Part shown: positions 1,582 through 64,000 of the stretch, in pieces | Layout of the letters: each line of letters begins with the position of its first letter | Numbering within the stretch: position 1 is the first letter of the stretch | Assembly: GCA_947646735.1 (NCBI GenBank) | Contig: CANTFK010000017.1 | Location: forward strand, 248,001 to 312,000 | Length of the DNA stretch: 64,000 bases | Direction of reading: 5' to 3' | DNA from: Peronospora farinosa | Lineage: Eukaryota > Oomycota > Peronosporomycetes > Peronosporales > Peronosporaceae | The notes under the pieces: model-generated | Told to the model about the DNA's origin: nothing | Databases searched by the model: none | Seen by the model: the letters and a program-made list of their open reading frames with translations, nothing else | Position numbers and translations under genes: made by a program

Positions 1582-3048
1582 ATGAGCAGGTATTTCTCTC
1601 GTGCTTTGTCTCGAGGTCAGCAGCAACCCGAAGACGAGGAGAAGCACGAGTACGAACACTCTTTGGTACCTAAATCGTCACTGTTACCGCCGGACGCTAC
1701 CGTCACAGGTCCCAAGCTCGATCCCATCCAGTTTTCCTCTATGGCGGGTCGATCACATCCTCCTCTGCCGCTTGTAGGCCATCGGTCGTCGCAGGACGAG
1801 ATTCGCGCGTTGCTAGCACGGACTACACAGGCACTGGACAAAATTGTAAGCATTCGCGAGTCTATGGAGGATCTCGTAGACTTTAAACAGTTCGATAGAA
1901 AGACGGAGCGTCTTTCGCGACCGTCGCGTGTTAGCTCTAGCATCGCAGAACTTGGGGAAAACCCAACGAGGTCGACGCCATCGTCGAGTTATGGCAGCAC
2001 TGAGGCATCGTCTCTTTCTGAGGACAATTTAGCGATGGACCGATCGACGAATTCCACGATCAACTCATCTTCGTCGCTTGAAGAGGACAGAGAATATGAC
2101 GTGGACAGGAACCGAGAGGATGATACGAATGGACACTTGTCCCTGAACAGACTGGACTCTGATGGTGAGCAACATGAACTGGAAATGGAGACGACAGAAG
2201 ACGGAAATCTGTATGATGATGATCCAGCCAGCAGTAGTTCCATTGCTAGCTCCATCTCAATGGTGGGAGATCTCGCACCTTTGAAGGAAGCTAGACTGGA
2301 ACGACTCAAAAGTATCAACATTTCGTTCCATGAGGGACTGCCGAAGGAGTTTTTCCAGTCGTTGTGCCGTTTTCTCAATTCCGCGCTTGAGGTCAAGACT
2401 CGACACTCGAGGTTTAACTTTTACAAAGATGCTTTTACGGGAGGTGACGCTGTTCGTGAGATGCTGACAAGTGGCTTTGCTGAAGACCATCCGACAGCTA
2501 CGAGATATGGCAATGTCCTTGTGCGACTTGGATTTATTGAGCATGTTTCCCGAACGGACGACCAGTTGCACAACTCTAAGGACAACTTTTACAGATTTAC
2601 CAAGGTGCTTGATTATGAAGACACATCGGAGGCTTTTGCCTCGGATACAGCTACGCGGAGACGCACGTCGATCAACGCTAACAATTACCGTGAGTCAGTG
2701 CTCTCGAACGAGTCCGCAGATTTGGTCGAGTACGATTTTGCCACAGCTACCGACGAGGTGCATGCATTTGTAACGGAAGAGACGTTGCACGTGCTGGCGA
2801 AGGTGCTGTATAAGATGTTCGAGCGCAAGAACAAACTTCTGTTCTACAAGGGCTTTGTTGGCTGCTTTTTGGGCGCTGAGGCTGTGAATGTCATCCGCGA
2901 GATGCGCATTGCTACTACACTCATTGACGCTGTGCTGATCGGGCAGGCGCTCCTGGACGAAGGTCTGATCGAGCCGATCGCCGCGACAGTCTCTTTTTTC
3001 CAGGACAAATACGTCTTCTACCGTCTCACGAAGATATCTTCGTCGTAA
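1582..3048 (+). CDS. Protein with two DEP domains
   Basis: A single-exon protein of 488 residues. The first 240 residues are low in complexity, rich in Ser, Glu and Asp, and probably disordered. Two DEP domains follow, at about residues 250-345 (with the FYKDAFTGGDAVREML core and the NFYRF end) and about 405-485 (LLFYKGFVGCFLGAEAVNVI to YVFYRLT). DEP domains bind membranes or GPCR tails in RGS, Dishevelled and related signalling proteins; here no catalytic or RGS domain accompanies them, so this may be an adaptor. The start is the first ATG of the open frame. The stop TAA is followed by about 400 bp before the convergent transporter gene. Domain identity is secure; the biological role is unknown. 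Confidence 0.85.
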   Translation: MSRYFSRALSRGQQQPEDEEKHEYEHSLVPKSSLLPPDATVTGPKLDPIQFSSMAGRSHPPLPLVGHRSSQDEIRALLARTTQALDKIVSIRESMEDLVDFKQFDRKTERLSRPSRVSSSIAELGENPTRSTPSSSYGSTEASSLSEDNLAMDRSTNSTINSSSSLEEDREYDVDRNREDDTNGHLSLNRLDSDGEQHELEMETTEDGNLYDDDPASSSSIASSISMVGDLAPLKEARLERLKSINISFHEGLPKEFFQSLCRFLNSALEVKTRHSRFNFYKDAFTGGDAVREMLTSGFAEDHPTATRYGNVLVRLGFIEHVSRTDDQLHNSKDNFYRFTKVLDYEDTSEAFASDTATRRRTSINANNYRESVLSNESADLVEYDFATATDEVHAFVTEETLHVLAKVLYKMFERKNKLLFYKGFVGCFLGAEAVNVIREMRIATTLIDAVLIGQALLDEGLIEPIAATVSFFQDKYVFYRLTKISSS

Positions 3049-3445
3049 TCAAGTCAGTCAATTGTACACATGCAGAAGCAAAGCAGGGTGATGATGCCGT
3101 CAAGGAAGCCCACGTTGTTCGCCAAGTGCGTGTATAAAGGCCAGTTCTACTTCAGTCCACCCTACTAAACTTGCTTGACTTAGCTAGCACCTTAGCAAGT
3201 CAGCATCGAAGAGTTGCTCATACTGCAGGAGGAGGCTACTTTTTGTTGGTAGCGCATATTTAATTCCAAACATCATTGCGCACATCCAGACACTTGATAA
3301 TACGTTGTGTCTCTCCAGCCTTCACCGACGTCGTCAGAACATCTAAATGGCAGCGTTGAATACCAAAGTTTCATTACTTCTTGCATCTCACATACAGCAC
3401 TACACAAAGTCATTAAATTGGCGGCATCGTGATTCATTCACAAGC
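3049..3445. other. Convergent intergenic region
   Basis: About 400 bp between the converging DEP and transporter genes. Only 3' untranslated sequence is expected. I see no gene or repeat in it. Confidence 0.5.
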
Positions 3446-5045
3446 TCATCCGTTCATGGACTTTGCTCCGGTAGAGGTCTCTTCATTGGCGTACAAAATC
3501 TTGTCCAGATCCTCAGAGTTGATGTGAGCAGCCTCTTCAAGATCGTGATCGTGTTTCGCATCGAATTCCTTGCCACGAGCCTCAGGCCCAATAAGCGTGA
3601 GCAAGAATACATAGACATACACAATACCCAAGAAGACGCAGATGACTTTGCCGTACTCGTATCGGCTCACACTGTTCTCGCCGTCCGGCAGCGGGAAGTG
3701 CTCTCCAAGTGAAGCTTCAATGGTTGACGAGGCCGACGAAACCAGATTACCGAGTTGATAGGCCGTCCCAACGACAAAGGCACTGTAGGATGGAGGTGAC
3801 AGCTCCATGAGATGGATGGGGATGACACCCCAAGCGCCCTGAACGCAGAACTGCTCAAAAAATGCAGCGATCATAATGGTCTCATTGCTGAGGTAACAGT
3901 ACGGATACAAGAGCGCAGCACCGATGACTGTCACGACGAGAATTGACAAGCGACGGCCAAAGACCTGCGAGTAGTAGCCCACCGTAGTACCACCGCAAAT
4001 AGCGCCCAGGTTGGCCACGACCTGAATCACAGTGACCTGGTTGGGGCTGAACTCGAACTGGTTTTTCAGCATAGTCGGATACAGGTCCTGCGAACCGTGA
4101 GACTGTATTCACATGCGTTCGAATAATCAGTATTATCATGAGTACAGTAACACGGACACATGGACGTACCATGAAGTTGAATCCTGCCATGAGAAGAACC
4201 ATGTAGCAGAGTAGCAGCCAGTGGCGCTTCAATGCAATCTTGCCTTCAGCTATGAAAGTCCGGGTCATGTTCTGACTCGCCTCACGCACACGCTGACGTT
4301 CCTGGAACACCTTTGTCTCCGGTAAGCACAAGCGGAAAATGATGATGAGAATTGGTGGACAAGCTCCAAACCAGAAGAGTGGACGCCAGCCATGGCTCGT
4401 GGTATTGACGAGAGCGCGAGCAAATACAACAGCTAAGAGGTAGCCGAAAGCGTATCCTTGTTGCATCATACCCGATACAATACCACGAGCAGCTAGAGGG
4501 CAGTCTTCAAGGGCTGTCGCAGCAACGTTGCCGTACAGGCCACCCATAGCAATACCAAAGAGCGCACGGATCCATAGGAACTGTGTGTAGGTCTGACAGA
4601 AACCAGTGGCTAACTCCAGGACGATGAATAAAACGTTGTTTACCACAAAGGGCCACTTGCGTCCCCATCGATCAGAGGCAATACCAAAGGTAATGGAGCC
4701 CACGGAACGTAGCATAAGCACGAGCGTAATACCCCATGTGATGTCAGTCTTGGTCTTCCCAAAGGTCTCGGACAGGTCTGATACCGTCATGGAAACGGTA
4801 AAGAAATCGAAAGCGTCCCACGTCCAAGCAACGAAAGCCACCAGGAATTGTAGCCACTGTATGCGGTTGAGCTGTGAGAGTACCACGAACGGGTTATTGA
4901 CGTTGTTCATGGGCGGCTTGAGTGTGGTAATCCGCGTGCTGCAGTACTCTCTCAATGAAAGGTCTTCGTCATTGTTTATCGGTTCACAAGTGCTCAATGA
5001 CCCGTTTGGAGAAGATCGCACCTGGTACGCAGTATCCGATGGCAT
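3446..5045 (-). CDS. JEN1-like MFS monocarboxylate/H+ symporter
   Basis: Major facilitator of the sialate:H+ symporter (SHS) group, which includes the fungal lactate/pyruvate permease Jen1. Two exons (5045-4170, 4102-3446) joined over a 67 bp GTACGT...CAG intron give 510 residues with about 12 membrane spans. Splicing creates NFMSHGSQDLYPT, an exact match to the Jen1 signature N-x-x-S/T-H-x-S-Q-D-x-x-P-T, which is direct support for the intron. Other marks are the DRWGRK loop after helix 2 and a W-x-W-D-A-F-D-F-F segment in helix 1, typical of the group. It probably imports short monocarboxylates with protons across the plasma membrane. The substrate is inferred from the motif only. Confidence 0.9.
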
Positions 5046-6370
5046 AATTGTTGCAGGTGGTACTGCCCAGAGGAAGAGAAAGTTTTCTACGAACTACTGA
5101 ACAATGCACTTGTGCTCTGGAGCGCACAATGGAAAATATCAAGTGGTTGTCAGTGGTCCGCTATCCTTCTTACAAACCAAAGATGGAGTACGCTTGAAGA
5201 TTCAACGGTTGATATGAGCCGGTGCAATGACCGGCAGCTGCAATGTCGGCTAGAGCATCACCATGGCTGATCCATTGCTGCGTATTCAGACTGGAGTTAG
5301 ACTGGCAAAGGATGGGGCGTGTTATCCTAATAAACTGAGACTCAGGCTCAACCATACATCCTTCATAGGCCGTGCCAAGACTTTTGCTACCTTGTATCAT
5401 AACCACTGACTAATCAGTGGTGTTCCTCATGACCCATTGATGGATTCTACTAATGAAAAAAAGTATTGCAATGACATTGTAGAATGTAGAGTGAGCTCAT
5501 ACATCGTCTGGAAGTAACGATGACAAGATGATGACAAGATGATGATGATGATCAGATTGTCTATTACATCTTTATGATTGCTTCAGATATATATCGGAGA
5601 GGAAAATCCCTGTCATGACTACGTCATTCTCCTATGCACGAGCTTATTCTGCTGGCTTAACCCGACAATCTTCACGAGGGACACTCCAAAAAGGCACGTA
5701 GGACCAAACATGAGCATATGCAGGGGGCATGTCGTGCCTTCTAAGTAAGACCGGGTACCAAATCGGCTGTCCCAGACGGGCCAGTCTGACTGATCCCTGA
5801 CATGCAGCTCCGGTCGGAATCGGAACGGACATAATCACGTTCTAGGGGAATTCGCTCCGAGGTGGCATAACACCTCGTGTATAAAGGCTAGACGAATGAT
5901 CTTTTTTCGTTGCTACGTCAAATACCGCTTCGAGCTTTGAATGTAGCGTTTCTATATTTTTTATTATTTAATGCGGTCACGTCAGACAAGCATGCGTGTA
6001 TGCACCTCAAGTCATCTTTACTGATTCTATATTGGCTCTTGAAGCTCTAGAGCTATTTCCTATAGCATTGGAATATCCTCGACTATTGCTCAAATTGGCC
6101 CAAATACACTGACGTTTGAACCAACAACGTCGGATCGGTGGGATGGAAGGCTGTTGATTATCACGTCATAGTGTTGTTGTCTCAGCCTTTCCTCCAAACT
6201 TCACAGTCGACACCGAGATTATCCTTCCAACAAAAGTGGCTTGTCACCATTTCAATAACAATTGCACGCGCACGTTATAGCATCGAAACTACATGTACCT
6301 AAGTACATGTAGCTTTGGTAATTCAACAGACCGTACTCCTCGCCAAGACCCGCCCGAGGGCGTCGTATTG
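5046..6370. other. 1.3 kb intergenic stretch
   Basis: Upstream of the transporter and downstream of the lipid-kinase gene. It contains a GAT/ACAAG microsatellite near 5518-5552 and short frames without recognisable products (5170-5406 and 5644-5838, both on the minus strand). No convincing gene is visible. Confidence 0.5.
6289..6312. repeat. Perfect 10-bp hairpin near lipid-kinase 3' end
   Basis: Arms CTACATGTAC (6289-6298) and GTACATGTAG (6303-6312) flank a CTAA loop. It lies 59 bp beyond the stop codon of the minus-strand lipid-kinase gene, so it would sit in that mRNA's 3' UTR. Function is unknown. Confidence 0.6.
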
Positions 6371-9300
6371 TCAGGAACAGTGCTCCTCCAGAATCACATT
6401 GTTATTGTGTGAAGAAGCCGAGTATTTCGTGACCGATTCGTACGAAGAGCATGGCGAACTGTTGTAATCGAAATCGCTTCGCGAGACGCGGCCGCAGTAA
6501 ACTTCATAATCCGACACGTGCGATATCGAGTGCCCTCGCGGTTTCATGCTTGTCCAGTCGCTATCGAGTGTAGACAAGTGACATTCCGATTTAGCTGGAG
6601 ATGGCTCGGAGATGAGTGAAGACTCGCTTATAAGGGACATATTGTCGACCAGCCGTGCCGCAACATTTGCGTGCTTTTCTTCGTCTGCCCGCAGCTTGTG
6701 GGCAGCGGTTACAGTTGATGTGCTGAGGATACCGGCAGTCACCACTGCAGATGAAACAGTCAGAGCGGGGCTTAAACGCGGCATGTCGGACTTCAATTTG
6801 AATCCACAGCGTTTGCGCATCCGAATCTCAAGCTCCTTCTCAATTCCAACAAAATAACGGCTTATGGCATTCATAAATCGACGGCGGTAAGAGATCGGAC
6901 TGATCACTGTCGGATCACGGAAAGTGAAGCTTGCCTTTGAAGTCGACTCCATCTTCTTTAAAAAATCAAACTGATGCAAATAGTCGATGAGTCCTACAAC
7001 AACTTGCCGCTTGTCTTCATCGAAGCGAAGCAACTATCGTTACAGACATCCAGAACAATACAACACGTCAATATATGTGACAAAATACCTTACCTGAAAA
7101 ACACAAACAAACCTACCAGTGAGTAATCGATGACACCTGCACGATACAGGAAGCCAGTGTCGTTCTGAATGGCAGTCTCAATGATCTCCAGATCTGGCTG
7201 CGACACAGGCACGGGGATACGCTCCGAAAAGTTGCCATCCAGCAATACTGGCAGATTCATGGAAACTTGAACGTTCGATACGCTGTTGAATGATGCATGA
7301 TGGTCCTTGTCATCGCTGTTAGATGCATTGTATCGACGGCGAAGAATTCCCTTAAGATCATACATTTGTCCCGGGGGAAATCCATACGAAAAGTTCTCCA
7401 TGATCACCACGTATTCCGTGTGCCTCAGTAAACGTCGACTATGGCTAAGCTTGAACAGACCAACGATCTTTGTAATGACTGTCGGCGCTGGAACCTCCAC
7501 CACTCGCGAAATAAACTTAATATACTTTGGAGCCATATGAACAAACATGTTGAACTCAGTCACCGATATACCCTTCAGCACGTAACGTTTGTCATGAGTC
7601 TGCAAACACATTCGCTACGTAAGTGACAGCCGCGAAGTAAAGTTTATTGAGAAAAGCAAAAGACAGCCCCAACTTACCATCGAAAAGAATGCGCCAGATT
7701 TACCTCCACTCGTATCCCACCGCTTGCTCTCAACAATGGAGTTCAGAAACTCCGCGTTCCCCGGAACAGTTAGCGCACGCAGCGCGTGGAACTGCGCAGC
7801 AAAGTATGCCACGCAGCAAAACTCGTGATTTGTCGAACCAACCGCATACGAAAACTTCATAGAAGTATGTTGCAAGTCTGCCGAGCGCAACTTGCTTAAA
7901 TAAATCGTTCTCTTCTCGTCGGAGGCTGTAGTAGTCGAGGCGCATGAGCGCGTATACTTAGTATCATTTGTTGGTGTGGTAACCACAGGAAGCTCCTCCT
8001 CACTTGAAGGCGGCGGTGGCGCAGATACTTCACTGCTTCTCGTGCTTTCAGCAGCAAGCAATTCTTCCGCAATATTCACCTTTTCATCAAAATGCGCCTC
8101 CAGCTGCTTGATGTACGCTGTCGAGCAAAGGGTGTATCCGATTAAAGAGCCGACGTCTTTGTCATGAACCTTTACGACGAATCCATTAACACCTTCGGGG
8201 AGCTCGAAATGACCATCACGCAATGCTGCTGGCATCTCGGTGTACGGCTTTATCCTAATCGTGTCGGAAAAGTGCAAGCCGTGACCGTAGCAGCTGGTCG
8301 CAGTACTGCTCGAGCGATTTGATTCTGGGACAGATAAACTTCGCTTGTCATGCCTCGATAAACTAAGAGAATTTGGTCTCTTCATCTCAAGCGAAGATCC
8401 CGATGTATATGACGACTCCAGCTTCCCAACAAATGAGTCTGACGTGGCTGTAGACAAATAACTCTCTTCATTTAGACTAGTTGGCTGCAGCCCCTTCTCC
8501 GCGGAAACGCCTTCCGTAAACCAATCAAGCGGAATTCGGCGCTTGGATGGAGAATCGGCTACAATCTTCTTGATGGTTGCGTGTTCCTGGGATGGGGCAA
8601 GGGATATGACACTTTCCTGTAGTCGACGGACTAACAAATACAGCTCTTTCAACAGCTTGTTACACTCAAGAACACTGGTCTGACCCGAACTCAGCAATGC
8701 ATTTGCGTCATCCTGAAACGCTGTGATAGATGCATGTGTTTCTATTCGTAGTCTCCGAATCTCTTTCATAGGCACACAGGGCCATATCGATGGTAAGAGC
8801 TCCTGCGCGGTACATAAATTTTCCTCCAAAATATCAATATTCTCGGATATGAATGCAATAGCCATCTCAATTCTTTCATGAAGAGCTTCACTGAACTGCT
8901 TCGCATAGTCACGACGACACCTCGCGTCCGTTTTGCATTTCGACTGCATCGTTGATGAAATAAACTTGTATGGTTTCCAAGCATCACGAGTGTGCTTTTG
9001 TTTGGTGCCATTGCTTTCTCCATTCACCTCGTTAATCGTCGAGGCACTGACGATCAAACCGTCTTCCTCCACCGACGAGCGCACACGTCGAAAGCTTCGA
9101 CTTCTTGAGCTGCTTTCAGACTCGTCCGCTGCAAAAAACGACGCTCGACTACGAACAATCATCTCACTAAGCGCTGAGATCCAGGAAGCGCGTGATGTGC
9201 CATCCACAGCATTCAATCGTAGTGTATGCTCTCCATTACATATACAAAAGTGGAACTGACGTGGCTTGGTCTCTTCCTCGACCAACAACGTCGTGTGTCG

Positions 9301-30619: not shown

Positions 30620-32656
30620 TTAGCTTACATTGATTCGGACATGCATTCTAAGATGTCCACCCTGAGAAGCTCGCGGGACCCACAATGTCAGTGAGCCACC
30701 GGCGGTCAAAGGTATACCGATCACGTTCTGGCGCCAACGATCTAGATACAAAACTTTGTCCTGCAAGTTTGCGATATTTTCGGTCACATTTACCGTAGAT
30801 CCAGCAGGCACACGCACTTTTTGGTATTTCTCGCTGCCTGAATGAATGACGACCGTCACATCTTTCGTGTCGATACTTTCAAAGATGAGATCCATTTTGC
30901 CATCGCCTTCCTTCGTCCACGTGCCATAGCTACCTTTAAATGCTTCGCCCATGGTTTTCAATCCGAGAGCATCGTACAGCGTCCCGTCGTCAATCTCACC
31001 AATGAAAGCAGTGGGTCCACAAACCGGCTGTACAAATTGTGACATCATCCACAAAAGACCCGACGGATCAAGACCACCTAGTACAGTAAGGGCCATGTTT
31101 GCTGAGTCCAGAAAGTACTCCTCTTCAGCAACGTTTCGACCCATGTCCGTCTGGTTTGTTTCGACAAGCTGGTCGACGATAGTTCCGAGCGTCTTTCGGA
31201 GCAAGTCACGAGTCTGAAACGCAACTTCTAAGGTTTTGATCTCCATGATCTCGCGCATGCAATTGTTGGTTGCGACAGGAATGTCCGTCAGAAGTAGAGG
31301 TGAATCACTGATTTCGACGCGGATGTCATTGACCGTGGCGGTGGGCATTTTGTTGCGAATCTCGCTTACTTTAGCGGTAATATGATCTGTGAGGTTTTTG
31401 AGCTGGAATCCACAAGTTGTGTTCGAGTCGAGAAAGACCTGTAGCTCTTGCACGGTTGAATTATCTGGAGAGCTCATCGCAGTGTCTTGTTGTAGAAGAG
31501 CGAAGACGTTACTAGCGGTCGAGAGGATTTGGTCGCCATTGACTATAACCTGTTTCACGATCACCTCCACAGTGATGTACACATAGTTGCTGATAACATA
31601 TCTCTTTTTGAACTCTTCCACACCGAGGCAAGTGGCGACAGCCATCGGCATGGCAAATAGCACAACATCGGACTGGTACGCAGCAGTAAGTAGTTCTTCC
31701 GTCGTTCCTTGTGGAGCCGTCACCCGCACGGCACTGAGATAGAAGATAAGAGACTTAACCACGCCAACAATGTTTGCAGCGCAAAGAAATTGTTGCTTTG
31801 CCTTCTTGAATGACTCAAACATTATGGAAGAGACTCCGGCAGTCACCGCGTTAAAAATTGCGGCAACCACAGCCGCAGACTTGGCAAGAATCTCTCCGGT
31901 ACAGTCGTCGTTCTGCGGAATGCACTGTTCGTAGCATGTCACCGGGTACGATAGCGGACATTGCGCTAAACAGCTCACTCCATTGGCGTTGTACCCTAAT
32001 GGGCACGATTTACCGCTGCCAAATTGCTCTCTCTTTCTATAGCATGCTGTGTCTTTGGCGTCGCCAATTGTATGACCAACCCAATTCCGTATTCGATTGC
32101 CATACCAGTCAGAGCCCATTGTATCTGTAAGTGTTTTAGTTGTCGCATTTATTCTTGTCCAGATAAGCCCCAATTGATCGAGTTCGCTTTCTGCACGACC
32201 GAAAAATCCACTGAGCTGAAAGCCTATAGGGGCGGTGATACTAGTGCTTTCATTTGTCTTTGTTCCTGCCTCGATTGAATTGCCTCTGTTCGTGGTAAAT
32301 TTGAGGTAGAAGATCCGCGAGCTCCGGAACTTCCTCCCCGAATTAATTTCCATGGCATTTACGTACTCTCCTTGCTTGAGAAAGAGTGAGTGGTCAGTTC
32401 CACTTAAGCCACCATGAGACAACATTAGTTCCGTTGGTGTCTCCGTTCGCAAAGCCACTGAAGTGATCCGCTTCTTGGCCCTGATTGAGATTAAGCAGGG
32501 ACTCTGACCAAACTTGACCAGTTCGATATCGGAGAACGCAGTGCCGCCGGACCCACCGATCGCCTCGCTCAGCTGAATATCTTCATCCAAGGTCACTCCG
32601 TCGACAGCAATGATACACAGAAGTACGAACGCTTGCAATAGCGTCAGTAATAGCAT
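30620..32656 (-). CDS. Secreted jacalin-like lectin protein (copy 1)
   Basis: An intronless gene of 678 residues. A strong signal peptide (about 1-21, LLTLLQAFVLLCIIAV) is followed by a jacalin-type beta-prism domain at about 28-170: GGSGGTAFSD, GEYVNAMEI, FQLSGFFGRAESELDQLGLIW. These domains bind carbohydrate, often mannose or galactose. Next is a cysteine-rich segment (about 200-260: SCPLGYNANGVSC, CLAQCPLSYPVTCYEQC), two amphipathic or hydrophobic helices, and a large unrecognised C-terminal region ending MHVRINVS. Many N-glycosylation sites fit secretion. It is paired head to head with a paralogue 2.5 kb away. Secretion and glycan binding are well supported; whether it acts on host, hypha or self is unknown. 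Confidence 0.85.
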   Translation of the reverse strand: MLLLTLLQAFVLLCIIAVDGVTLDEDIQLSEAIGGSGGTAFSDIELVKFGQSPCLISIRAKKRITSVALRTETPTELMLSHGGLSGTDHSLFLKQGEYVNAMEINSGRKFRSSRIFYLKFTTNRGNSIEAGTKTNESTSITAPIGFQLSGFFGRAESELDQLGLIWTRINATTKTLTDTMGSDWYGNRIRNWVGHTIGDAKDTACYRKREQFGSGKSCPLGYNANGVSCLAQCPLSYPVTCYEQCIPQNDDCTGEILAKSAAVVAAIFNAVTAGVSSIMFESFKKAKQQFLCAANIVGVVKSLIFYLSAVRVTAPQGTTEELLTAAYQSDVVLFAMPMAVATCLGVEEFKKRYVISNYVYITVEVIVKQVIVNGDQILSTASNVFALLQQDTAMSSPDNSTVQELQVFLDSNTTCGFQLKNLTDHITAKVSEIRNKMPTATVNDIRVEISDSPLLLTDIPVATNNCMREIMEIKTLEVAFQTRDLLRKTLGTIVDQLVETNQTDMGRNVAEEEYFLDSANMALTVLGGLDPSGLLWMMSQFVQPVCGPTAFIGEIDDGTLYDALGLKTMGEAFKGSYGTWTKEGDGKMDLIFESIDTKDVTVVIHSGSEKYQKVRVPAGSTVNVTENIANLQDKVLYLDRWRQNVIGIPLTAGGSLTLWVPRASQGGHLRMHVRINVS

Positions 32657-35199: not shown

Positions 35200-37257
35200 A
35201 TGTCGCACTGGGCGATAGCAGCGCTCCAGACGCTGACGAGTTTGCTTGCAATCATTGGAAAAGTAGTCGCGACGACGAATCATATCGCCTCGATCGATGA
35301 AGACATTCAGCTGAGTGAAGTTTATGGAGGTTCCTATGGTGATGCATTCTCTGATATGCCTTTCATTAAACTTGGCCAAACTCTGAATGCAATTACACTC
35401 CGTGGTGGCGAACGACTTATCTCCATTACGACACAAGTAGCGACACCGGCTCATGCAACGTGGAATCACGGTGGTTCGGATGGGGTAGAGGCTGTTCTCC
35501 TCCTAGATACTAACGAGTATGTCGACAAGATGGAAATTCATTGGGCCAAACGAAAAAAACATTTCCGTGTCTTCTTCGTCAACATTAGTTCAAGTGCGGG
35601 AAACCATGTCTGGGCTGGAACAAAAACGTCAAAGAGCACTACGGTGACTGCTCCTAAAGGGTTTCAGCTTAGTGGATTCTTTGGCCGCTCGGCAGGTGAG
35701 GTCGATCAACTCGGTGTTATCTGGACGAGAAGATCAGCCAAGACAGCACACCTTACAGATAGAATGGGTACTGAATGGTATGGCAAGAGAATTCGTAACT
35801 GGGTGGGGCCCACCCTTGGCTCTTCCACTGACTCGGCATGCTACCGGCAGACAAAGTCTTTTGGCAGCAATCGCATTTGTCCGGCAGGCTACAATGGGAA
35901 TGATGAGGCCTGCATTGCTCAATGTCCGTTAGCGTATCCCGTTTCGTGCTATCTGGAGTGCATTCCCCAGAATGATGACTGTGGCCTTGAAATTGTGCAG
36001 AAGGTTTCGGCTTTGCTTTCCGCTGTTATCAATGTGGCGACGGCCGGCATCTTTGGCGCTGTCATTTCGATATACAAAGATGTGAAGCGAGAATTCTTGT
36101 GCGCGGCAAATATTGTTGGCGTGATCAAATCTCTTCTCTTCTTCCTTAGGTTTCAACAGACGACAGCGCCCCAAGGAAATGTTGAAGAACTACTTGCTGT
36201 CGCGCTCCAAGCTGATGTTCTAGTCGTCGACTTACCTGTCGCAGTAAGCCATTGCCTTGGCCTCCCTGTGTCATCAGACTTTATATTTTCTGGTATTGTG
36301 ATGATGGTCGTGGAAGCTATTGCCAGGGTAGCCATTACTGAAGGAGATCAAGTGTTGGAGTACGGATCCAATATTTATCGCCTTATACACAATGTTACCG
36401 CGGTCAACACCACCCACACGAGCGTGGACGAACTACAGGATTTCTTGGATTCCGGCTCGACTTGCGGGTACCAGCTCAAGCGGCTCACGGATCATATCAT
36501 CCTCTCGGTCAATAAAGTTCGTGATGAGAATCCTAAAGCCACGACCAGCGATGTTCGAGTTAACATCAGCAGGTCTTCACTAGTTCTCAATGATATTCCA
36601 ACAGCAACCAACAATTGTATGAACGAGATGCTCGCCTACAAAACTCCAGTTGCCGCGTTTAAAACTCGCGACTTGCTGCGTAAGACGTTCGGCGTAATTG
36701 TGGATCAGCTAGTCCAGTCGGCCACAACTGACATGGGAGCTTTCGTAGCGGAGAGTGAGTTTGGGCTTGAGACCCTAAATTTGGCTCTCGCGTCATTGTC
36801 TGGGCTAGATCCGACACGATTTGTCTGGCTGGCATCCCAATTCGTTCAGCCGGTTTGTGGACCTACTGCTTTCATCGGTGAGATCGACGATGGATTGCTG
36901 CACGACGCGCTGGGCTTAAAAACTATTGACGAAGCGTTTGTTGGAAGTTATGGTGTGTGGTACAAAAAGGGTGACGGCGTTGTGATGCTTACTTTCACCA
37001 GCATCGATACAAAGGACGTGGAGGTAGTAATTCGCTCAGGTGGCAGCCCCATTGCGAACGTTCTAGTGGCTGCAGGCACGACGGTGATTTGGAATTCTAC
37101 TGTTACGAAGCTGCACGAGAAACCGTTGTATTTAGACCGGTGGCGACCAAATTTTGTTGGCATTCCGGCGTTGGGCGGTGGATCATTAAAGTTGTGGGTT
37201 CCAAGTTCATCTGAGGGAGGCCGTTTAATGATGCATGTGCGAATAAATGTTAGTTAG
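35200..37257 (+). CDS. Secreted jacalin-like lectin protein (copy 2)
   Basis: An intronless gene of 685 residues, collinear with copy 1 over its whole length and perhaps 55-60% identical by eye. It has an N-terminal hydrophobic signal segment (LTSLLAIIGKVVA), a jacalin domain at about 35-175 (DEDIQLSEVYGGSYGDAFSD to FFGRSAGEVDQLGVIW), the same cysteine-rich block (CPAGYNGNDEACIAQCPL), the same helices (AANIVGVIKSLLFFL) and the same end MHVRINVS. The most conserved stretch is the C-terminal QFVQPVCGPTAFIGEIDDG region, suggesting it is functional rather than a linker. Its divergent layout with copy 1 points to duplication with inversion. Confidence 0.85.
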   Translation: MSHWAIAALQTLTSLLAIIGKVVATTNHIASIDEDIQLSEVYGGSYGDAFSDMPFIKLGQTLNAITLRGGERLISITTQVATPAHATWNHGGSDGVEAVLLLDTNEYVDKMEIHWAKRKKHFRVFFVNISSSAGNHVWAGTKTSKSTTVTAPKGFQLSGFFGRSAGEVDQLGVIWTRRSAKTAHLTDRMGTEWYGKRIRNWVGPTLGSSTDSACYRQTKSFGSNRICPAGYNGNDEACIAQCPLAYPVSCYLECIPQNDDCGLEIVQKVSALLSAVINVATAGIFGAVISIYKDVKREFLCAANIVGVIKSLLFFLRFQQTTAPQGNVEELLAVALQADVLVVDLPVAVSHCLGLPVSSDFIFSGIVMMVVEAIARVAITEGDQVLEYGSNIYRLIHNVTAVNTTHTSVDELQDFLDSGSTCGYQLKRLTDHIILSVNKVRDENPKATTSDVRVNISRSSLVLNDIPTATNNCMNEMLAYKTPVAAFKTRDLLRKTFGVIVDQLVQSATTDMGAFVAESEFGLETLNLALASLSGLDPTRFVWLASQFVQPVCGPTAFIGEIDDGLLHDALGLKTIDEAFVGSYGVWYKKGDGVVMLTFTSIDTKDVEVVIRSGGSPIANVLVAAGTTVIWNSTVTKLHEKPLYLDRWRPNFVGIPALGGGSLKLWVPSSSEGGRLMMHVRINVS

Positions 37258-47199: not shown

Positions 47200-47370
47200 A
47201 TACGCACCACGCACGAAATGCTGCAAAAGCTTCTGCGTGACGTCGGGGACTTTTCGTTTAAAAGTTCGTTGCACTCTTTCTTAAGCGAGATACAACTGGT
47301 GGTACGAGTCGACCAACCGCATAATCACCCTCGCACGCGAAGGTAAGACGGTCTAACCGCTTCCTCGCTT
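47200..47370. repeat. Repeat X, left copy (adjacent to LTR A)
   Basis: Starts TACGCACCACGCACGAAATG. It is a direct repeat of 53761-53940. On the minus strand both copies can be read as RLTF(A/V)CEG(D/G)(Y/H)AVGRL, so this is probably element coding sequence next to the LTR. Confidence 0.65.
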
Positions 47371-47474
47371 GTGCTGAAGTCAGCACCTGCTTAAGATGGG
47401 TCGGGAAATGTGGGAGCGCAGTAGGGGCGGGATGCCCTACGGTCGCGGACTCTGAAGCTACCCCTAAGTTCAGA

Positions 47475-49494
47475 GTGATCGAACAAATGGGTAGCATATT
47501 TTCTGAGGTTCCGAAAGGTCGGATCTCAACCCTTTTGGTCTATAGCGCTCGAGTACGAGGCTATGACCAAGTGATGACTCTTCTCGTGGAGTCGGGTGCA
47601 TCACAAAACTTTGTGAAACTCGCGGCTCTGAAAAAGAGACCGGCGAGTTATGAGTCGCTTTGCCAGTATGGCAAGCGAGAAGAGGCGATCGCTCGTTTAG
47701 CGAACGGCGCGCTCATTAAATCGGAGGGAGTTCAAGCTGAGCTCGCCTTCAGCTTTAGTGACTTCTTTTGTAAAGAGAAGTTCTCAGTGATAGGTATGGA
47801 GAGTCCGTATGATCTCATCCGAGGCATGCCTTGGTTGGCTATACACCAACCATGGATAGATTGGAGTACACGTACAGTCACTAACTCTACGCAAGACACC
47901 GTAAAGGATGTGCTCCTGAGAGAGGCCTATGCGATTAATGCTGTGTCCAACACAGTCGAGGGTGCGATGACGGTATGTCAATCGACACCAGGAATTACCC
48001 AGATCGAAAGGATTAGTGTAGTTGGAAGTGCCCTGGCAGAAAGCCAGGCGACACATATTCCTATCCAGGTCGAAAAGACTGGTGTAGTGAATGGGGCGAT
48101 GACAGGTAGTCATGCGTCCAATAGTCCTGCACATAGACGAGAGCCTGTGGCAGTTGATGGTGGGCTGACAGGAAGTCAAGCGCCACAAGAACCAGAACAG
48201 AGCCATGAGCCTGGTGCGGTTGGAAGGAGTGCGCTGGCTAATACGGCAACGACACCTTCTTCCAGGTCAAAGGTCGTGGTGACTCGGAACAACGAGCACC
48301 AGACGTATAAAGATGATCAAGGTCACGTCGAAGCGAGAGACCCTTGGATCAGTCTCCGTCCAAGAGTACGGACCTACGAACGAGTTGTTCGAGGCCGCCG
48401 AAGACCGAATGTCGGAGGCATCCTAAGTTGAGGTGGTCCAACTTGTCTTGGCATCTGTCGAGGAGATAGTAAATCTCTCGGAGATGACGTGGGATCTGTT
48501 TCTGTCCGAACTAAAGGAAGGAAAGATCCACGAGATAGTCGCGCCAGTTCCAGAAAAGAATGTGGTGGACTATTGCTCGTCGTCCACAGCGGATAAAAGC
48601 GTCTTGGAGACCGACAAAAAGAAACGGTTCGCTGCTCAAGTCTGGTAAGCCTTGAAGGAAAGCCCGTTCTATGATGTTCTGTGGAAACACCGTGATGTGT
48701 TTCCAGCAGAAGTTCTGAGCCGCCTACCGGCCGATAGGGGCATCAGGAACGAGATTGATCTGGAGCCTGGCACCAAGTATTGTGTGACCAGGCAATGAAC
48801 GCTGCCGAAGGAACAAGTAGATTACATCGATGAGTTCTTCTACAAACGAGCCAAGTCGGGACGTGTACGTGAGAGCAAGTCGCCTCACTACAGCCCGACC
48901 TTCTATGTGCGTAAAGCAACGGGTGGATGGCGCGTGGTTCATGCTTATAACAAGCTGAACACGGCCACCATTCCGGCTCAAACGACGATCTCTCGGAAAG
49001 ATATCTTGTTGAACTCCATGGGAAAGTCAACTATCTTTTCCGCGTTGGATCTGAAGGATGGCTACTATCAATCTCTTATGAGAGATACTGATGTAGCCAA
49101 AACGACAGTAAGCACCCCAAGCGGTATTCTGTGGGAGTGGCTTGTGATGCCACAAGGGTTGAAAAATGCTCCAACAACATTCAACCGAGTGGTGGCTCAC
49201 GTGATGCTTCAGCACCGCGCCTACGCGCCCCATTACTTTGACGATGTATTCGTGCATAGTAGGGCGGAGGACGGTCTGAGAGCAATAGAGTCGCACAAGC
49301 GTCATTTGGAAGCTGTGTTGCAGACACTGGGTGACGCCCAATTGTACTTTAACTTGCAAAAGTACGTAGCAGATGTCCCCGAGATACCTGTACTGGGCTG
49401 CATCGTAGGTACACATGGTGTACGAGCATACCCAGAAAAGGTAAAGGCTATCAAGGAATGTCTAGTCCCTCGACATGTGAAGGTGCCTCTCTAG
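47475..49494 (+). pseudogene. Ty3/gypsy protease-reverse transcriptase, degraded and truncated
   Basis: Retropepsin-like region first: LLVESGASQNFV, where the catalytic DSG is ESG, then YDLIRGMPWLAIHQPWIDW. A low-complexity linker made of repeated VxGxxTGSQA-like units follows. The frame shifts near 48,430 and has in-frame stops at 48646 (TAA) and 48796 (TGA). Reverse transcriptase then runs from IDLEPGTKYCVTRQ through WRVVHAYNKLN, FSALDLKDGYYQ and LVMPQGLKNAP to the active site YFDDVFVHS. Homology ends right after PRHVK, where RNase H should begin. It is non-functional. Confidence 0.88.
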
Positions 49495-49498
49495 ATAA

Positions 49499-50527
49499 CC
49501 GGTGCAAACGATAGCATGCACCGGACGTGTATCGTTTCTCAAACTTATTGTGGCAGCAGCATAAAGTCTTTGAAACCAAGCCTTTTTCAAACGATTAAAA
49601 AGTTTGTGACAAACGCGTTCCACGATTGGAGAAACGCGTTTGCCTCACGCTTCTTGTGTGGACCATACCATCGATGTTCAAGAAACACATCGATGTAATA
49701 GTCGTTCTCAGTGCGAAAGTTCTTCGCACTGGCTTCAAGGCCGTAAAGCTTTGACGCATCAAACAACGATATGGGGAACCGTTCGTTGGAATTTCCAGAA
49801 CAACGATCAAGCAGATGCTATAATAGCATCAAGGGCTTGCGATCAGGAGCAAGACGCAATACGTTGCGGTCTAAAGCCTCCTGCGTGGTGTCAAGTACCG
49901 ACACCACGTGCATTGATGTCAGTAGAAGCACTGACATCACCCTTACCGCCCCAATCGAGTCACTATCCCTCGACTCGTTTAGTGAGTCGTCTAATTAGTC
50001 AAACGACCCGAACGTTTCACGGTACATTCATTCACTCAATGTACCACGGACCCTCTTCGTAAGATTCGACGACGAGGTATCACCCCGAAGAAGCCCGGGA
50101 GTGGCACAGTTGGCTTTGAGTCGGATGCGTCATCCGACTCACCAGAGTAGTCAACGACTGACTCTGGGTCAACATCTTCACGTGGCGCTTCGCCACGTGA
50201 ACCTGCAACAGCCGTTGCAGGCTGATGTTGACTTCCAGCAGACACATTAGTGTCTGCTGGCGAGGCTGTGAAGCCTCAGTAGCGGCTGCACACAGGCGTG
50301 CAGCCGAGTTCTTGGCTGCCTTGGCAGCGACGCAAAATGACTTGGTCATAGCGTGAAAATTGTTGGAGTAAAAGAAAACCCAACAAGTGCTCCTTTTCCA
50401 TAGTAACTAAACAGTCACTAATGAGGCTGTTGGTTGAGGGGGGGGGGGTAACGGGGTGAGTCCGTTACATAACATTGACACTTATATGAAGTGTCAATAA
50501 AAATATTATTATAACTAATAATATTTT
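49499..50527. repeat. Zone packed with short perfect inverted repeats
   Basis: At least 13 perfect stems of 8-11 bp occur in about 1 kb. Left/right arm positions: 49499-49506/49517-49524; 49709-49717/49723-49731; 49814-49821/49823-49830; 49884-49892/49900-49908; 49915-49923/49930-49938; 50021-50028/50038-50045; 50118-50127/50131-50140; 50177-50187/50191-50201; 50202-50209/50214-50221; 50235-50245/50250-50260; 50283-50291/50298-50306; 50474-50483/50489-50498; 50500-50510/50517-50527. A 9-bp outer stem (50168-50176/50224-50232) encloses two of them. Shorter stems lie at 50062-50067-type spacings between. Confidence 0.9.
49560..50349 (-). pseudogene. Degraded retroelement gag-like reading frame
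   Basis: On the minus strand an ATG at 50349 starts an Ala-rich frame (MTKSFCVAAKAAKNSAARL). The next frame continues with SAGSQHQPATAVAGS and an acidic block, then FFGVIPRRRILRR. Further left, after more breaks, an aromatic frame (DYYIDVFLEHRWYGPHKKRE) is readable. It resembles the N-terminal part of a retroelement gag but carries no zinc knuckle or other firm motif. Frameshifts and stops make it inactive. The stretch overlaps the hairpin zone. Confidence 0.4.
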
Positions 50528-51485
50528 GACAATATTACCTTTTCTTATAATATCGTCTCTAAATCTCGTTGAAGTTGGAGATGCCCTCTAATTGATATAT
50601 GGGCCATCATATCAACCAACGCGCTGACCAGTGACCGACGGACACGCGCAATGAGTGGAGGGCAAGTTGTCAACATACATAGTTGTAGTTAATATAGTTA
50701 ACATAAGTTATAATAATTAGTTTTATTAGATAGTTAAATTTATTGAATACGTTTTCTTTTTCGTATCAACTCAGCGTTTGTTTACATGATTTATTTCTTC
50801 TGCTCACGTGTACGTGAAGTGATTGAGGCTTCTTCTTCACTGTCATCAGTGAAGGTAGACTATACTGTTATCAGTATAGTCGGAGGTTGCTTCATAAAGT
50901 AGCCTATTAATGAGCTTAGGCACGTTATGAAAAGGGCCTGACGCGATGGACCGTGCCATAGTCCATTAATAAACGTAGGCACCTTAATGAGCTCTTTTAT
51001 CGGGCCCACAGTAATGAACGCCGACAGCGAATGCATCTCCTGCTTTTACTCTTGCAGAGATCGTTTCGCCTGGTGTGCTCCATAAGTAGCACACCTGACG
51101 TAGCACTTCATTTTTAAATGGATGGTACATGGCGCGAATATTTGTCTTAAAGATCGCCCAGGATGAAGCGCATCGGCGTTTGCCATAAGCGCAGCGTAAG
51201 CCCGCACTAACGCTTTGCCACGCAAATTTGACATGGCATACGACAACATCCTAGTATCGTCTTCGATGAGCTGCGCCATACCGCATTGCTTCACATTGCT
51301 TCACTACTAAAAGACAACGGAAAATCGTATGTGGGGCAATCCCATCAAACCTCGGAGGGTCCAAATGGGCCTCGCATCATAAGATGGGCAGAGAGCGTCT
51401 CAACACTTCTGTTGAGCGTTGGTCCTAGCTCGATCATGCAAAAGCTCATTCTAAGTCTTACTAAAGAACTCAGCCATAGTTTGGC
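50350..51485. other. Retroelement-derived sequence with gag fragment
   Basis: Contains a poly-G run (50439-50448), GTAACGG/CCGTTAC arms (50448-50454/50462-50468), A+T-rich sequence, two further strong hairpins (CTTCACTG/CAGTGAAG 50835-50842/50847-50854; a 10-bp stem 50858-50867/50872-50881) and a minus-strand fragment at 51046-51294 reading TRMLSYAMSNLRGKALV, a gag-like peptide common in oomycete gypsy elements. No intact gene. Confidence 0.5.
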
Positions 51486-62961: not shown

Positions 62962-64000
62962 TGGAACGGAGGTCCGGGTCCCCCGGTGGCAGCCCAACCT
63001 TCCAGTCCTCCTGCGCTACGCGCACGGTTAAATGCCACCACTACGAGTGGTGATTCACGTCTGATTATTGTCAGTTTACATGTCGCCGGCGTCCGGCGAC
63101 CTCTGCGAGCACTCCTGGACTCAGGAGCAACAAACAATTTCTTTCGTGAATCTTGTTTGTCGATGCTGCCTCCCAGCATTCAGGTCCGTGAGGGACCTGG
63201 CCAAGTCGTCGTCAAGTTGGCTGACGGGAAACCACACCGCGTATCGCGGCGCGAAGTGTCGTTGCCGTATACGTTTGATGGCTTTCGCAGTAATGATGAT
63301 TTCTTGGTGATCGCGATGAATTATGCATTCGATTGCATACTGGGCATGCCATGGTTGGCACGTTATAAGCCCCAGATCGACTGGTTAGCCAGATCAGTGA
63401 GACGTCGACGCAAGTTCGATGTCAGTGAAGTGTTTACCCATCTCTTGGTATCTCCAAGTGACTGGCCAAACGTCACAGTCGTGGATCGCGATTCCACGAC
63501 GTTGGCGGTGCACAGAGCGAGCGATGGCCCTCTCTGCACTGCTTGTGCTGTTCTTCGGGACACAAGTGACAGTGACTCCTCGCTACAGAGCGAAGAGGAC
63601 GACGAGGACGACGCGGTCGAACAGGGGTTCCCGCGCGTCATTAATGCGGTTGAACAGGGGTTCCCGCACGTGGATGCAGTGGTTGAACCGGGGTTCCCAT
63701 CTGCACCTATTGTGGTCGAGCAGGGGCTCCCACAAGGGCATTGTGGCGACGAGCAAGAGCTCGCCAGCGAGTGTGACGCGGACGGACAGGAGTCCTCACG
63801 CGAGAGCATGATGGTCAAACCGGGGTTCCCATCATCACCCACTGTGGTCGAACCGAGGTTCCCACATGGGCATATTGTGGTCGAGCAGGGGCTCCCACAC
63901 GAGTACAACGTGGACGGACAGGAGTCCCCACGCGAGAGCATGATGGTCGAACCGGGGTTCCCATCATCACCCACTGTGGTCGAACCGAGGTTCCCACATG
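62926..64000 (+). CDS. Family B protease-pol, open to window edge
   Basis: In the -1 frame relative to gag, open for 1075 bases. Retropepsin region: SLHVAGVRRPLRALLDSGAT with the intact catalytic D-S-G, then ILGMPWL and the QIDWLARSVRRRRKFD end. An acidic stretch (SLQSEEDDEDD) and a run of 11-residue repeats follow. RT, RNase H and integrase would lie past the window. There is no ATG near the start, as expected for frameshift expression. The lack of stops, against the heavily decayed copies at 53 and 57 kb, suggests a younger insertion, although gag carries two stops. Confidence 0.82.
63616..64000 (+). repeat. 33-bp tandem repeats coding VEQGFP-type units
   Basis: Units of 33 bases encode 11 residues beginning V-E-(Q/P)-(G/R)-(F/L)-P. 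Four such units, including one that reads DGQESPRESMM, form a higher-order unit of about 132 bases, with a second round starting before the window edge. Partial units survive on the minus strand at about 59,740-59,830. Confidence 0.85.

Follow-up and report, generated by a model that had tools for sequence, protein, structure and literature searches.

Short perfect hairpins throughout a chromodomain Ty3/gypsy retrotransposon family of Peronospora farinosa

Short perfect hairpins fill a Ty3/gypsy retrotransposon family of the oomycete Peronospora farinosa from end to end, coding sequence included. We consider it about an even chance (probability roughly 0.5) that self-pairing of both strands has been selected, fed partly by template switching; any purpose of such pairing is hypothetical. 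The window, a stretch of 64,000 nucleotides (contig CANTFK010000017.1, positions 248,001 to 312,000), carries the 3' end of one copy. A first-pass annotation had described positions 49499-50527 of the window as about 1 kb of gypsy retroelement DNA with at least 13 perfect hairpins, having stems of 8-11 bp and loops of 1-13 nt. A program search (stem of at least 8 bp, loop 1-15) found 15 perfect inverted repeats in this stretch, with stems of 8-12 bp and loops of 1-13 nt. The minimum count and the loop range were thus borne out and the upper stem length was exceeded by one 12-bp stem (50500-50511/50516-50527), the longest. In 200 dinucleotide shuffles of the stretch the mean was 0.19 repeats and the maximum 3, and the gene island (window positions 1-46000) is not equally rich, with 9 perfect inverted repeats in total or 0.20/kb. 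The excess of hairpins is confirmed, and the density is far above chance as the annotation had estimated. Its view that composition is insufficient as a cause was likewise upheld, as stems of A/T only and G/C-rich stems both occur and the shuffles are far lower. Stems of at least 8 bp comprise 286 of the 1029 bases, and stems of at least 6 bp 428. Beyond 50527, the 3' LTR adds two further hairpins (50835-50854 and 50858-50881). The hairpins, to which no strand is assigned, are:

49499..49524, stem 8, loop 10
49610..49642, stem 10, loop 13
49669..49695, stem 9, loop 9
49709..49731, stem 9, loop 5
49814..49830, stem 8, loop 1
49884..49908, stem 9, loop 7
49914..49939, stem 10, loop 6
50021..50045, stem 8, loop 9
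50117..50141, stem 11, loop 3
50168..50232, 9-bp closing stem (50168-50176/50224-50232) around the hairpins 50177..50201 and 50202..50221
50177..50201, stem 11, loop 3; the loop (CTT) is exactly inverted relative to the AAG of L013, a locus of the intact copy described below
50202..50221, stem 8, loop 4
50235..50260, stem 11, loop 4
50283..50306, stem 9, loop 6
50474..50498, LTR hairpin, stem 10, loop 5
50500..50527, LTR hairpin, stem 12, A/T only, loop 4
50835..50854, LTR hairpin, stem 8, loop 4
50858..50881, LTR hairpin, stem 10, loop 4

The hairpin-bearing element begins at 49484, upstream of the stretch first noted, and is fused there to a different gypsy element. We refer to the two families as A and B. 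The parts of the window involved are:

47325..49483, + strand, piece of the other gypsy family (B) covering RT and the N-terminal part of pol, broken off within pol at the junction (RVT_1, E=1.9e-21 on 48799-49491)
49484..50899 (end approximate), + strand, 3' portion of a chromodomain Ty3/gypsy element of family A, with pol-LTR interval, polypurine tract and 3' LTR; 5' truncated
49484..50435, - strand, remnant of an antisense reading frame, roughly the N-terminal half of the 633 codons of the intact copy; all three antisense frames broken
50436..50448, + strand, polypurine tract (G run) preceding the 3' LTR, placed from the sequence and the LTR boundary in intact copies
50447..50899, + strand, 3' LTR, ends approximate and last bases decayed; intact copies read TGTAACGGGG...CCCCATTACA

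Positions 47325-48428 gave no Pfam match. Window 47454-49483 aligned with 5439-7466 of locus L022 at 90% identity, and 49201-49483 matched family B in L031 at 92% identity, the alignment ending at 49483. At 49483/49484 two gypsy families are joined inside RT, which may have arisen by nested insertion with deletion or by recombination. To judge from its sequence the window copy, a member of family A in a broken chimera with family B, is truncated and dead.

In a genome search 40 of 532 first-look candidates were scored, and all 40, the window included, matched the stretch at 84-100% identity; family A thus has at least 40 copies. From the 39 copies outside the window, 24 were used for the 3' region and 20 had pol flanks. 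The match spans about 49484 to about 50890 in all 20 of the 9-kb loci, with L014 stopping earlier and L020 beginning 4 bases later. Such common boundaries raised the suspicion that a distinct mobile element of 1.4 kb had inserted into gypsy DNA; this was rejected because the family-A copies share upstream pol among themselves, not with the window. An intact copy on contig C42 (L034 and L013) measures 8192 bp end to end and has LTRs of 463 and 462 bp that are 98.9% identical, start with TG and end with CA; a G run, the polypurine tract, precedes the 3' LTR. The copy is laid out as gag, pol (protease, RT, RNase H and integrase) and a tail with SH3-like domain and chromodomain, with the antisense frame opposite; the tail of pol is a separate overlapping frame. 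Pfam matches above cut-off in family A were Retrotrans_gag, RVP_2, RVT_1, RT_RNaseH, Integrase_H2C2, rve, SH3_Tf2-1 and Chromo, and a candidate zinc knuckle of gag scored 18.8 bits with zf-CCHC (cut-off 20.8), the CCHC pattern being visible in the translation. By its predicted domains family A is a Ty3/gypsy LTR retrotransposon with a chromodomain, and the annotation of the stretch as gypsy DNA was correct in that it is the 3' end of this family. The full C42 copy appears to sit within an LTR that belongs to another, inverted family-A copy. Another copy, L022, has a 0.9-kb patch (2550-3450) that is 81-83% identical to 39 other listed copies and is ordinary family A in the remainder; the patch suggests a trace of a lost subfamily or of recombination.

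The intact copy showed that the hairpins are not confined to a special region of about 1 kb, as had been thought, since the whole 8.2-kb element is saturated with them, coding sequence included. It contains 114 hairpins, located in LTRs, gag, pol and antisense frame. Stem lengths peaked at 8-9 bp, not at the shortest stems (8 bp in 37, 9 in 38, 10 in 24, 11 in 9 and 12 in 6), and loop sizes peaked at 4 nt (31), followed by 5 (18) and by 6 and 7 (11 each); loops of 4-6 nt were found in 60 of the 114. Compared with the means of 100 synonymous shuffles, gag has 19 hairpins (0.75 expected), pol 45 (1.58), the tail 16 (0.52) and the antisense frame 32 (1.25), while five ORFs of the island have 0, 0, 0, 0 and 1. 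Folding energies gave the same picture. All 20 sense tiles of 400 nt had z-scores of -7.6 to -14.4 with a mean of -10.3 (20 shuffles), the 20 antisense tiles had a mean of -10.1, and ten island tiles had a mean of -0.04. Saturation from end to end makes packaging, dimerisation or export signals, which the first-pass annotation had put forward, poor explanations by themselves; two of its other proposals, selected structure and template switching, have both left traces.

A 9-bp stem enclosing two hairpins had been reported and is present in the window at 50168-50176/50224-50232; its homologue in the intact copy closes two hairpins with 2 bases unpaired. Such nesting is rare. The family-A copy has 27 long-spaced repeats (11.6 expected from the island), just 3 of which enclose hairpins, and multi-branched higher-order folding was rejected on this count. 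Helices rarely extend past the first mismatch. Tetraloops of the RNA type were also rejected, as GNRA occurred in 2 of 20 four-base loops counted by eye. At gathering scores Rfam gave no matches in the window. Stem length was weakly correlated with GC content (rho -0.31, p=0.0014, n=102 for the whole element; -0.18, p=0.09, n=86 for the coding part), and hairpin energies were less spread than those of random arms in 198 of 200 draws, also a weak effect.

What had looked like a plain noncoding hairpin array is an antisense reading frame in the intact copy, and the former description was dropped. The frame (L013:3126-5024, minus strand) is open over 633 codons, or 572 counted from the ATG at L013:4841, overlaps the tail of pol and runs into the 3' LTR of the C42 copy. 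In the window the three antisense frames over 49484-50442 have 15, 16 and 10 stops. The frame behaves as coding by sequence criteria, since third positions outside stems vary more (0.0350) than first (0.0229) and second positions (0.0213) and the sense frames across the region have 17, 15 and 11 stops. A protein search in which 8000 candidates were scored gave 131 matches, and the best relatives among the 120 listed are from Peronospora: identities were 80-92% in Peronospora effusa and 35-53% for the P. matthiolae proteins listed, among which a single cluster represents 1335 sequences. Pfam gave no significant match for the frame (best E 0.012, under the cut-offs and weakly coiled-coil-like), two of its relatives matched 0 Pfam families, and one scan of viral contigs found no such protein. 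An antisense frame with relatives across Peronospora is a possible reason why both strands matter.

Within the genome, strong folding was found in both gypsy families. The folding excess over synonymous shuffles was 46% for gag, 42% for pol and 43% for the antisense frame of family A and 31.7% for pol of family B, compared with 1.2, 0.8, 9.1, 0.3 and 2.6% for five copia ORFs and -0.9, -0.8, 0.5 and -1.0% for four island ORFs. Family B achieves this by other means. Its pol folding is built from surplus stems of 4-7 bp, with interrupted helices in one drawn 700-nt stretch, and its 4.9-kb ORF has 7 perfect stems of at least 8 bp where 1.2 were expected; its LTR has 8 in 604 bp. The copia ORFs contain 5, 3, 7, 1 and 2 hairpins (1.08, 1.24, 1.22, 0.58 and 0.94 in shuffles), a modest excess in three of the five, and the repeats taken as copia LTRs contain 0, 2, 3, 2 and 0. 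G-U pairs make up 4.2-5.4% of the predicted pairs in A and B, and for copia and island DNA the share is 9.3-14.4%. The remaining repeats of the window have 8.3-13.5% G-U and a folding excess of 6-20%. With A and B strong and copia and island weak, extreme folding is a property of these Ty3/gypsy lineages, which reach it in different ways. The family-B LTR in L031 has its own hairpin set, in which several stems are kept and loops are variable, with about 24% divergence outside stems across related LTRs. One copia terminal repeat (L072) carries an 18-bp perfect hairpin with a loop of 3. Elsewhere in the window, 63615-64000 contains tandem repeats in a gypsy-like reading frame (pairs 72-85% identical), and 30620-32656 and 35200-37257 are inverted related ORFs with 65-67% DNA identity over parts, the second with a jacalin-like lectin domain.

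Stems were compared with their surroundings by counting variants. For pol and the beginning of its tail, with the window copy and L013 itself left out, 8 of 253 third positions in stems had shared variants, as had 46 of 700 outside hairpins and 18 of 88 in loops, while first and second codon positions showed no significant difference between stem and non-stem sites. In the antisense frame 28 of 132 third positions in stems were variable and 73 of 215 others. Combined, third positions in stems are about half as variable as those outside (OR 0.52, p=6.9e-6, with sites taken as independent though the copies are related). Singletons at third positions were scarcer in stems too (40/245 versus 183/724), which would be odd for mutations later than insertion; these data would also be compatible with stems mutating at a lower rate. 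As a test of whether the coding partner explains the effect, third positions paired with third positions were examined; 8 of 44 were variable, and outside stems 247 of 788 (p=0.067). Of 60 coding stems, 10 have their third positions facing each other, the phase hardest to build synonymously, where equal phases would give 20. Codons within stems match family B less often: residues agreed at 48 of 103 pol codons lying fully in stems and at 344 of 536 stem-free codons, from which it appears that hairpins sit where the protein yields. In the LTRs the two families differ. Stems of the A LTRs are no more conserved than the rest (0.062 versus 0.052), and in the 10 B LTRs stems diverge by 0.136 versus 0.244 elsewhere.

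Loss of folding energy was compared with simulated drift (four random-change runs per copy) for 14 well-covered copies; the other 5 of 19 cover fewer than 4800 of the 5250 reference positions. The loss was below the drift mean in all 11 copies diverged by at most 2.7%, although L021 and L028 fall within the spread of the simulations and L011 is barely beneath that spread. The older copies L026 and L027 (3.7-4.4% diverged) have lost as much folding as under drift or more, and L022 (6.6%) somewhat less. The drift runs ignore protein constraint, so part of the difference may come from coding.

Changes on the two arms of a stem were examined in LTR sets without duplicates and without rows identical to the reference at 97% or more (B) or 99% or more (A). 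The 51 A LTRs had 117 both-side Watson-Crick cells, and 1-42 with slid partners; most derive from one hairpin and represent few events. For the 10 B LTRs the figure of 12 was barely above the controls (2-11). Two perfect versions of one A-LTR hairpin occur, with several differences between them in each arm, and L018 and L068 carry opposite hybrids of the two, a pattern that fits recombination or one-arm intermediates. Under selection on the sense RNA, one-sided changes to G-U would be expected to be better tolerated than those to A-C. Outside the LTRs, shared changes gave 15 G-U versus 12 A-C and singletons 77 versus 83; distinct change types in the 3' region numbered 91 G-U and 83 A-C, and the element's own one-mismatch helices comprise 19 with G-U, 25 with A-C and 24 with others. 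LTR cells lean to G-U (62 versus 40 A-C in A and 42 versus 29 in B), these being cells and not events. Since G-U is not favoured over A-C outside the LTRs, selection on the sense RNA alone is unlikely, and a DNA-level or purely mutational cause is compatible with the same result.

Template switching has occurred at family-A hairpins, as shown by footprints in the sequences of several copies. Exact loop inversions were found in L019 (CCT/AGG), in L018 (GAT/ATC), in L010 and L018 (ATTA/TAAT) and between the window copy and L013 (AAG/CTT), and L011 has a near-exact one. In L018 a hairpin is duplicated with its loop inverted (AAAGTA/TACTTT), and in L016 there is a fold-back, a reverse-complement copy of the LTR end. 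Scanning for matches to a nearby reverse complement gave nine windows, spread over six places in five copies, and for matches to a nearby direct copy none. After sifting, which removed L012 and L020 as apparent alignment shifts and L022 5343 as the alternative LTR hairpin, L016, L018 and L022 2984 are left.

These observations are best accommodated, in our view, by two-strand selection together with template switching. The whole family-A sequence would have evolved such that each strand folds into consecutive short hairpins, the pairing being kept, we infer, by selection in the active lineage. Short-range inverted template switching, in which one arm is copied from the other, may supply some of the new or repaired hairpins. 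As to purpose, the folding might hinder the pairing of sense and antisense transcripts or cDNA, whether with small RNAs or among themselves. In the host there are four matches to the Piwi domain (Argonaute), and two of its ORFs carry RNase III domains in pairs, which makes a shield against small RNAs conceivable. Selection on both strands plus switching fits most of the observations; the equal variability of stems and non-stems in the A LTRs does not fit.

A purely mutational origin is rather unlikely. Copying, by reverse transcription or host replication, would switch template at inverted repeats and homogenise their arms, so that hairpins accumulate without benefit and coding constraint decides which survive. 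The loop inversions (L019, L018, L010, window/L013 and the near-exact L011), the duplicated hairpin of L018, the fold-back of L016 and the scan matches to reverse complements at L016, L018 and L022 2984, with none to direct copies, are what it predicts. It also explains the strand symmetry and the Watson-Crick stems in which G-U is not preferred outside LTRs. Arm homogenisation with spacer inversion is known in yeast genes (PMC8604942), and template switching has been proposed as a maker of RNA hairpins (PMC8794818). However, the five copia ORFs fold little (0.3-9.1%) and have a modest hairpin excess, so the switching rate would have to be lineage-specific. Moreover, about 5 inversions stand against some 316 distinct one-sided stem changes outside LTRs. 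Neutral homogenisation should, we reason, not lower substitution in stems, and template switching as the sole cause predicts equal variability of stems and non-stems; yet stems in pol, the antisense frame and the B LTRs vary less, those of the A LTRs being the exception.

A more specific form of the two-strand reading, a folding shield, is unlikely as it stands. Here gypsy sense RNA, antisense transcript and cDNA would all be selected to fold into short perfect hairpins, with stems too short for Dicer yet so dense that sense-antisense duplexing and pairing with small RNAs are impeded. The need for both strands to fold would cause G-U to be shunned and stems to become perfect palindromes, and these would attract template switching, which would re-perfect the stems. 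If the shield is real, no described coding nucleic acid of such length known to us would be folded as strongly and evenly as family A.

Selection on the sense RNA only, for stability, packaging or shielding as in the genome-scale ordered RNA structure of persistent positive-strand RNA viruses, is quite improbable. It would account for the folding excess in every tile, the fewer shared variants at stem sites, the substitutions that spare structure and the lean of LTR cells to G-U. It does not account for an antisense strand that is at least as structured as the sense strand (folding-energy excess 49.2 versus 47.7% in A and 39.7 versus 34.0% in B), for the low share of G-U pairs in A and B relative to copia and island DNA, or for G-U being no better tolerated than A-C outside LTRs. 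Even less probable is selection at the DNA level, with hairpins or cruciforms that matter in cDNA or integrated DNA for integration, chromatin or recombination. Watson-Crick pairing and strand symmetry agree with it, but there is no evident reason for coding DNA to need hairpins everywhere, and the stems, at 8-10 bp, are short for extruding a cruciform. Chance, composition or codon usage can be dismissed, as dinucleotide and synonymous shuffles fail to reproduce the counts and A/T-only and G/C-rich stems coexist.

Folding of coding sequence over whole genomes has been studied mainly in RNA viruses. Among the matches listed from an open-licence library there was no report of a retrotransposon saturated with hairpins, which agrees, as far as it goes, with the first-pass annotation, whose author knew of no description in oomycete gypsy elements. 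The Chronos group of oomycete chromodomain Ty3/gypsy elements (PMC5348765) resembles family A in its protease-RT-RNase H-integrase order, in a chromodomain ending pol and in its occurrence in Peronosporales. It differs in having a second, archaeal-type RNase H, whereas family A shows one RNase H region: in L013:1-2661 a Pfam search found no second RNase H, with two overlapping RT_RNaseH models at 365-495 and integrase from 612. The words 'hairpin' and 'inverted' do not occur in that paper. Plant Retand/Grande-type elements (PMC11963269) share a long antisense ORF between pol and 3' LTR, but are a non-chromovirus lineage with a TRP28 domain in the Retand antisense ORF, and family A has neither TRP28 nor another significant Pfam match there; 'hairpin' is absent from that paper and 'palindrom' occurs twice. 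Hairpin-primed chromoviruses and polypurine-tract stem-loops are mentioned, for single places only, in PMC3601003. The P. effusa pangenome paper mentions active LTR Gypsy families (PMC11540230), and its main text lacks 'hairpin', 'inverted repeat' and 'palindrom'.

Template-switch mutation at short inverted repeats (PMC8604942 and PMC8794818) is alike in arm homogenisation, exact spacer inversion and multi-base changes; those papers concern single-place events, whereas in family A the whole element is saturated and stems appear constrained. The many genomic copies record hairpin origin, switching and decay, and allow a direct test of whether selection keeps the perfect stems or template switching makes them. 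The nearest known concept is genome-scale ordered RNA structure. As described in PMC7642675, it shares with family A the consecutive stem-loops through coding sequence, the folding energy above shuffles and the rarity of repeated variants at paired sites. Folding excess throughout is seen by computation in family A, and variation is depleted at paired sites in its coding parts, not in the A LTRs. The differences are that the viral case is an RNA virus and ours a retrotransposon, and that in family A both strands are equal and the stems are Watson-Crick with few G-U pairs. In the same source the folding excess of SARS-CoV-2 is 15%, that of hepatitis C virus 7-9% and that of a bird coronavirus 23.4%, compared with 42-48% for family A by similar, not identical, methods. 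The excess of family A is thus about twice the highest virus value given there, and it is equal on both strands.
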